From assembly GCA_003165415.1 (NCBI GenBank), contig PLUC01000055.1, positions 1 to 61,761 on the forward strand: a stretch of DNA of 61,761 nucleotides. The letters are read 5' to 3'. The translations under genes and the position numbers were made by a program. Positions within the stretch are counted from its first letter, which is position 1; every line of letters begins with the position of its first letter. Positions 5,362-61,761 of this stretch are shown piece by piece. The notes beneath the pieces were generated by a model. It was given only the letters and a program-made list of their open reading frames with translations. It searched no databases and was not told the DNA's origin. This DNA comes from Holophagaceae bacterium (GTDB taxonomy: Bacteria > Acidobacteriota > Holophagae > Holophagales > Holophagaceae).

Positions 5362-6429
5362 GTGCACCCGATCGTCGACAAATTCATCGAAGGCCAGCTG
5401 CCGGAAACCCTGGCCGAAACCCTGATGGCGGGCAATCTGCCGGTGCCGCCGCTGGACCTGCTCCAGGCCCTGGCGCACGCGGTGTTCAAGGGGTTGCCCC
5501 TGGCTCCCAAGGCCCTGGAAACCCTGCTGGGCATGCCGGAGAAGTTCCTGGCCAACGCCATCGTGGGGCCGGTGCAGCCCGAGGCGCCCCTGGGCCTCAT
5601 TCTCCTCCACCGCAAGGAGCCGGGCCTGCTGGAGACGGCGCTGCTGCACGAGAACATCACCTCAGAGTGGATCGAGCGGGCGGTGCCGTTCCTGCCGGGG
5701 TCGGTCCTGGAAATCGCCCTGAACAACCAGGTACTCTGGCTGGAGCGGCCGGTCATCCTGGATCTCCTCGAGACCCATCCGGAGGCGGACTACCAGATCA
5801 AGCGGCGGGTCAACGAATTCCGCCGCGACGTGCTGCGTCTGGTCTCCGCGGAGGTGGTCCAGGAGCGCCTGGAGATCATCGACGAGGTGGAGGCCGGCCG
5901 GCTCGACCGTGCCTGGTCGGAGCTGCCGCTGCCCAAGGATTCGCCTCTGGAAGAGTCCACCGTGGACCACACTGCCAGTCTGAGCAGGGTGGCGGCGGAG
6001 ACCGGCGAGGACATTCCGCTCCGCCTGGCCCAGCGCGTCATGAAGCTGCGCACCAATCAGAAGATCATGCTGGCGATCAAGGGCGGCAAGGAGGAGCGCA
6101 CCCTGCTCATCCGGGAAGCCAACCGGCTCATCCAGGTGAACGTGGTGCGCAACGGGCGGATCACCGAAGGGGAGATCGCCTTCATCGCCCAGATGCGCAG
6201 CGTCAACGACGAGGTGATCCGGATCATCACTTCCAACCGGGAATGGATGAAGAAGTACTCGATTGTGCGCAACATCGTGATGAATCCGAAGACCCCGCTG
6301 GCGATCTCTCTGAACTTCTTCAAACGGCTCATCGACATGGATCTGAAAATCCTGGTGCGGGACAAGGGCGTCGCGGAAATCCTGCGGCGGGAGGCCAAGC
6401 GCTACCTCACGCTCAAGACCAGCACCTAG
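5362..6429 (+). CDS. Conserved hypothetical protein
   Basis: Intact 355-aa ORF directly downstream of the RodZ-like gene; family not recognised. Confidence 0.75.
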   Translation: MHPIVDKFIEGQLPETLAETLMAGNLPVPPLDLLQALAHAVFKGLPLAPKALETLLGMPEKFLANAIVGPVQPEAPLGLILLHRKEPGLLETALLHENITSEWIERAVPFLPGSVLEIALNNQVLWLERPVILDLLETHPEADYQIKRRVNEFRRDVLRLVSAEVVQERLEIIDEVEAGRLDRAWSELPLPKDSPLEESTVDHTASLSRVAAETGEDIPLRLAQRVMKLRTNQKIMLAIKGGKEERTLLIREANRLIQVNVVRNGRITEGEIAFIAQMRSVNDEVIRIITSNREWMKKYSIVRNIVMNPKTPLAISLNFFKRLIDMDLKILVRDKGVAEILRREAKRYLTLKTST

Positions 6430-6588
6430 CACCGTTGGATAACGTTTGGATGAAGCGTTCGGCTGGGCACAAGCAGCCGTAATGGAGCAAGCTCCATAAC
6501 GGCTGCTAGCATCGTTGGATCATGTTTGGATCAAGCGTTCCGGCTGGGCACAAGTAGCCGTTAGATCGCTGGCGACTTAACGGCTGCT
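6430..6588. repeat. Tandem ~80-nt repeat with two 36-nt hairpins
   Basis: ACCGTTGGAT at 6431 recurs as ATCGTTGGAT at 6511. Hairpins at 6472-6507 (AGCAGCCGTAATGGAGCAAGCTCCATAACGGCTGCT) and 6553-6588 (AGTAGCCGTTAGATCGCTGGCGACTTAACGGCTGCT). Confidence 0.85.
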
Positions 6589-6909
6589 TGTCCGTGCGGG
6601 TTGTTCGGCTCGTTGGCCGATGGTGCGCTGGTCCGGCAAGCGATTGAATTATTTGTATCTAGCAGGGGAAAAAGCGTGGAATCGGAGCCGGGCCCCATCT
6701 GTGGAGAAGCGCGGCAGCACTGGTAAAAACCTGATTTCAATTGGCTCGATGCGTCCTGCACTGGGAATTCAGCAGTGCTCCGATGACCCGATTCTCATAG
6801 GAACTTCCGATTTCCCCACAGCGAAATCAGCAGCCTTCGCGGAAAACTTCCCGGGCCCGGAATGGCCCGGTCCGATCGCACGCTCTCCCCTGGGGTACAC
6901 TGGGAGGCT

Positions 6910-61673: not shown

Positions 61674-61687
61674 GCCGAACAGGACGG

Positions 61688-61741
61688 GGGGACCGCGCGC
61701 TCGCTTTGCTCGCTCTAACCGAACGCATGCGTTCGGTCCCC
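61688..61741. repeat. GC-rich intergenic structure with 20-nt perfect palindrome
   Basis: ACCGAACGCATGCGTTCGGT at 61718-61737 is its own reverse complement; GGGGACCG (61688-61695) can alternatively pair with CGGTCCCC (61734-61741). Confidence 0.65.
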
Positions 61742-61761
61742 GCACCCCCACTTCATGCCCG

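Follow-up and report, generated by a model that had tools for sequence, protein, structure and literature searches.

The genome of this Holophagaceae bacterium (4.84 Mb, 273 contigs) contains at least 69 dispersed, near-identical, non-coding copies of a repeat of approximately 81 nt, which we found with a covariance model and pattern searches. Half of these copies lie within the stop codon of an adjacent gene and leave that gene undamaged. We consider that the repeat is probably a non-autonomous, MITE-like mobile element of approximately 79 bp that targets TA, has imperfect terminal inverted repeats and leaves a TA on each side. It is a new family among the known small mobile repeats: we found no published description of it in the literature searched or in Rfam, and Rfam gave no match at the gathering threshold within the window, the 61,761-nt contig PLUC01000055.1 (C74 in our numbering).

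Positions 6427–6588 of the window consist of two tandem 81-bp units, each with a 5′ domain of approximately 45 nt followed by a 36-nt hairpin. The features of the window that bear on the repeat are all on the forward strand:

1–31, forward: hairpin end of a further unit in a tandem array, cut by the contig end
32–113, forward: third full copy, with a 5′ domain of the CCGTTCGGAATG type
5362–6429, forward: host gene with the element in its stop codon; no Pfam match
6427–6429, forward: TAG, the stop codon of the 5362–6429 gene and the left end of the element (TA plus the element's first base, G)
6427–6507, forward: repeat unit 1, 81 bp (TA, 5′ domain and hairpin); best covariance-model match, 106 bits
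6472–6507, forward: hairpin of unit 1, 36 nt
6508–6588, forward: repeat unit 2, 81 bp, in tandem with unit 1; its 3′ TA is now TT
6553–6588, forward: hairpin of unit 2, 36 nt, with the tip variant GATCGC/GCGACT

The original prediction described the hairpins at 6472–6507, 6553–6588 and 78–113 as equal in length, with arms that differ in a paired manner. Checked on the sequence, each is 36 nt, and the paired changes (for example, GCGGAG/CTCCGC to ATGGAG/CTCCAT) are as it described; the TAG at 6427–6429 both ends the 5362–6429 open reading frame and opens the repeat as its first three bases. The further claim of one repeat family with compensatory stem changes is supported by covariation and by the additional genomic copies. 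Each unit consists of TA, then a variable 5′ domain in which GCACCGTTGGAT and GGGCACAAG are conserved, then the 36-nt hairpin, and is followed by TA. An IS sharing the ends of the family would carry TA-GCACCGTTGG or TA-AGCCGTTG at one side and GGAGCCGTTACG-TA at the other. The terminal inverted repeats of the 81-nt form (5′ GCA-CCGTTGG and 3′ GCAGCCGTTAC) are short and imperfect, unlike those of a classical MITE.

The covariance model returned 60 full-length matches in the genome; as all 60 of the scored candidates matched, this number is a lower bound. Two pattern searches enlarged this set to the 69 loci and 71 units analysed here. Of the 69 loci, most have a terminal TA at the 5′ end and, where the 3′ end is intact, nearly all have one there too; the commonest context is CTAG or CTAA. 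BLAST with the 82-nt consensus found no match in any of five congeners, and the covariance model found a single match among them, in G005.

Genes were called with a codon-usage score that had been trained on the genes of the window. By these calls, 35 of the 69 copies have a terminal TA inside the TAG or TAA stop of a flanking gene that reads into the element; the TA concerned is at the 5′ end in 20 copies and at the 3′ end in 20, with 5 copies counted in both. The TAG of the 5362–6429 gene is thus not a one-off case. Within the window, 23 of 143 intergenic-or-stop TAs are stop TAs (16%), rising to 29% for YTAR. The observed overlap exceeds both expectations (P = 3e-11 and P = 9e-5, respectively), although these values are only indicative, given that the expectation comes from a single 61-kb window and the gene caller is approximate. 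Among the 34 copies whose gene context could be scored, 13 were convergent, 15 tandem and 6 divergent; convergent gaps make up 9 of the 53 gaps in the window and 4% of its intergenic bases. Copies in other genomes showed a lower stop overlap (7 of 25, P = 0.09).

Such overlaps could arise if the element truncates or reshapes its target genes and supplies them with new stop codons, which the original prediction gave as one of two options for the 5362–6429 gene. We searched the peptides ending at the 35 overlapped stops against the five congeners and obtained usable hits for 22 genes. Most orthologues end at the identical residue, often with TAG, and carry no repeat. Because repeat-free orthologues end at the same codon, the element used pre-existing stops and did not reshape the genes. 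Relatives of the 5362–6429 protein occur in Holophagaceae/Geothrix metagenome-assembled genomes and in one record labelled Deltaproteobacteria. In three repeat-free congeners the orthologue stops at this very position with TGA, in a fourth it extends two residues further to a TAA, and several more distant relatives have TAG at that end. The prediction was therefore correct that the element inserted at the 3′ end of this gene and that the stop codon is now made up of its first bases. Reshaping of the gene is not supported, as the congener orthologues end within 0–2 residues of the same place. This outcome, a shared end without the repeat, comes close to what the prediction itself named as its refutation. 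Reshaping may account for the few orthologues that differ by 1–7 C-terminal residues (for example, at L122 and L026) and for four 105-nt copies of the sister subfamily described below (L219, L223, L228 and L230), in which a convergent reading frame runs 17 nt into the element before its stop. As a general rule it is contradicted by the orthologues and by several empty sites that already carry a stop at the insertion point, and we regard it as extremely unlikely.

The empty sites come from a 105-nt sister subfamily, which we reached through weak matches to the repeat. It is present in 24 of 77 Holophagaceae genomes, including the host genome, and follows the plan [TA]AGCCGTTG...CGGCATAAGGRGCCGTAACG...hairpin...GGCYCC[TA], with short and imperfect terminal inverted repeats (AGCCGTTG and GGRGCCGTTAC). 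The family is thus common to part of the Holophagaceae, and knowing it should be useful for annotation. When the flanks of eleven 105-nt copies were joined, they matched many element-free congeners. At L235/L242 (95% identity), the empty site ATG-TAA-GGAG corresponds to the filled site ATG-TGA|element|TAAGGAG, and at L227/L243 and others, the empty site CTA (a reverse-strand TAG stop) corresponds to CTT|element|CTA. L223/L251 fits a TA insertion, and L225/L247 has a stop at the insertion point, but the empty site there has TGA. The comparisons at L229 and L234 are uninformative. Together, the empty sites indicate insertion at TA, more than once within a stop codon, with duplication of the TA and erosion of some TA copies. 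They are confined to the 105-nt form because the congeners are too divergent between genes for the 81-nt copies; the 81-nt subfamily, in which TA is seen at both ends, probably duplicates TA in the same way. We also considered a 3–4 bp duplication (TAN or YTAR) and rejected it, as the bases that adjoin the left and right TA on the inner side seem to belong to the element.

From the TA target alone, we infer that a transposase of the IS630/Tc1-mariner type would mobilize the element in trans. No autonomous IS with matching ends was found among the DDE_3 (IS630) loci of the host and carrier genomes, the assemblies of which are fragmented. The copy that adjoins a DDE_3 fragment in G007 (L285) forms no element end, and neither does the copy lying approximately 1 kb away in G023 (L275). 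An attC-like reading of the motif GTTGGAT was dropped, as no cassettes were seen.

In this high-GC genome, non-coding TA falls disproportionately within TAG and TAA stops. As the outer bases of the 81-nt form are G and C, insertion at the TA of a stop codon would restore TAG for genes that run into the element from either direction. Insertions of this kind would be nearly harmless and would accumulate at gene ends, above all between convergent genes, so that the stop-codon enrichment would come mainly from selection rather than targeting. Alternatively, the family may be specialized for stop codons through its choice of TA/YTAR targets, the G...C bases that regenerate TAG for the genes to its left and right and, possibly, an active preference for gene 3′ ends; we view this only as a tentative possibility, under which the element would spread through a high-GC genome almost free of cost. 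Through the orthologues and empty sites, the repeat offers a clear case of a small bacterial repeat lodged in stop codons with its neighbour genes intact, and explains why such repeats so often appear to provide stop codons.

We next consider the hairpin. The region 6420–6600 folds beyond chance (z = −6.5 relative to shuffles). In a 45-copy alignment, 8 of 16 stem pairs changed on both sides, and double-change cells numbered 53 compared with 12.8 in shuffles, with none of 500 shuffles as high. Pair 50–77 (unit numbering) occurs as GC, AT, TA or CG, and pair 57–70 as CG, GC or TA. On a poorly resolved tree of the 5′ domain, five stem pairs require 6–14 changes, which makes compensatory change look recurrent; exchange of hairpin modules as blocks may be another source of this pattern. 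The covariation is real, yet it is no proof of a functional RNA. Selection on an RNA from one strand would be expected to favour G.U, whereas the non-Watson–Crick positions are approximately strand-symmetric (19 A.C and 15 G.T), and the stem therefore looks as though it is kept as a DNA palindrome rather than a one-strand RNA, most likely for transposition. A structured 5′ domain, or pairing of CGGCTG with a hairpin arm, was rejected: the covariation score exceeded that of shuffles, but doubly changed pairs and pair types did not. In one copy (L023:7145–7225), both hairpin arms (CAGGCG/CGCCTG) and an upstream CGGCTG to CGCCTG change in step, which hints at an alternative pairing that the remaining alignment weakly supports.

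The repeat could instead be a functional RNA at mRNA 3′ ends, a bidirectional terminator or an mRNA stabilizer or processing site; its spread or retention would then follow from its ending or protecting transcripts between convergent genes. In favour of this are the hairpin immediately behind stop codons, the strong covariation of its stem and the excess of copies between convergent genes; effects on mRNA decay are known for ERIC and Correia repeats (PMC10969869). However, an intrinsic terminator has a hairpin followed by a U-tract, and a run of four T after the hairpin was found in 1 of 55 copies and in none of the other 54. The equal frequency of A.C and G.T mismatches, the 6 divergent placements among 34 and the near absence of the repeat from complete congeners also count against this explanation. 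We judge it unlikely, and our preferred reading of a mobile element would involve no regulatory role.

A REP/REPIN-type palindrome moved by a RAYT (Y1 tyrosine transposase), with termini that happen to supply TAG, would account for the palindrome, the copy number and the placement between convergent and unidirectional genes. IS200/IS605-type insertion is not known to duplicate its target, whereas TA was left on both sides in the sister-subfamily empty sites. The unit of 81–105 nt also exceeds the 20–40 nt of REPs. The host genome's three Y1 loci contain no copy of the repeat, no Y1 transposase is flanked by it, and these genes look IS200-type, with hairpins of their own. GTAG/CGTC REP elements resemble the repeat in being palindromes at gene 3′ ends from whose terminus flanking ORFs often obtain their TAG (PMC3733652), but here there is no GTAG/CGTC tag (the ends are CTAG/CTAA-TA, with GTAG at the 5′ end in 4 of 69 copies) and no RAYT association was found. 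A REP origin is accordingly quite improbable.

Each ingredient of the mobile-element reading has a published precedent: TA duplication, the IS630-linked RUP, the stop-supplying BOX and GTAG-REP, and a MITE acting as an IS hot spot. ERIC-type repeats duplicate TA on insertion (PMC2759123), and, like ERIC and the enterobacterial RU elements (PMC2759123, PMC10969869), the repeat is a short, non-coding, RNA-foldable palindrome with TA ends, intergenic and near gene ends. We saw no sequence relation to them; the repeat measures 81 or approximately 105 nt rather than the 127 nt of ERIC, and has one strong hairpin at one end in place of ERIC's long central palindrome. Correia is a further comparable element, beside ERIC and RUP. 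The pneumococcal RUP has a link to an IS630-type transposase, and BOX provides the stop codon for 36 CDSs without clear truncation; RUP, BOX and SPRITE share with our repeat an enrichment between convergent genes (PMC3049150), but differ in sequence and host, and for our repeat family the empty sites show insertion into stops that already existed. QMITE2 of Coxiella burnetii, a MITE near gene 3′ ends, is a hot spot for IS1111 (PMC5896051); our repeat is likewise a hot spot for a DDE-type IS, although the IS family, sequence and host differ.

A second multicopy element, starting (T)CTGCAGTTTGGAC, lies flush against the feet of several kinds of hairpin, including this repeat, at L017:1625–1804, L042–L061, L018:1–60 and approximately 40 sites in G000, most of them at contig ends; many assembly breaks coincide with it. 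Where L018 begins, it abuts a terminator-like hairpin. Some copies continue into sequence for the C terminus of a DDE-type transposase, which matches PF04693 weakly, and the element resembles an IS with hairpins as its target. At L017:1589–1673 and L068:259–303, the same IS-like end stands at either foot of a repeat-unit hairpin and separates that hairpin from its 5′ domain. At its right end (61680–61761), the window holds another type of palindrome, with the motifs ACGCATGCGT and CATGCCCG, which also borders the IS-like element in L058, L059 and L061.
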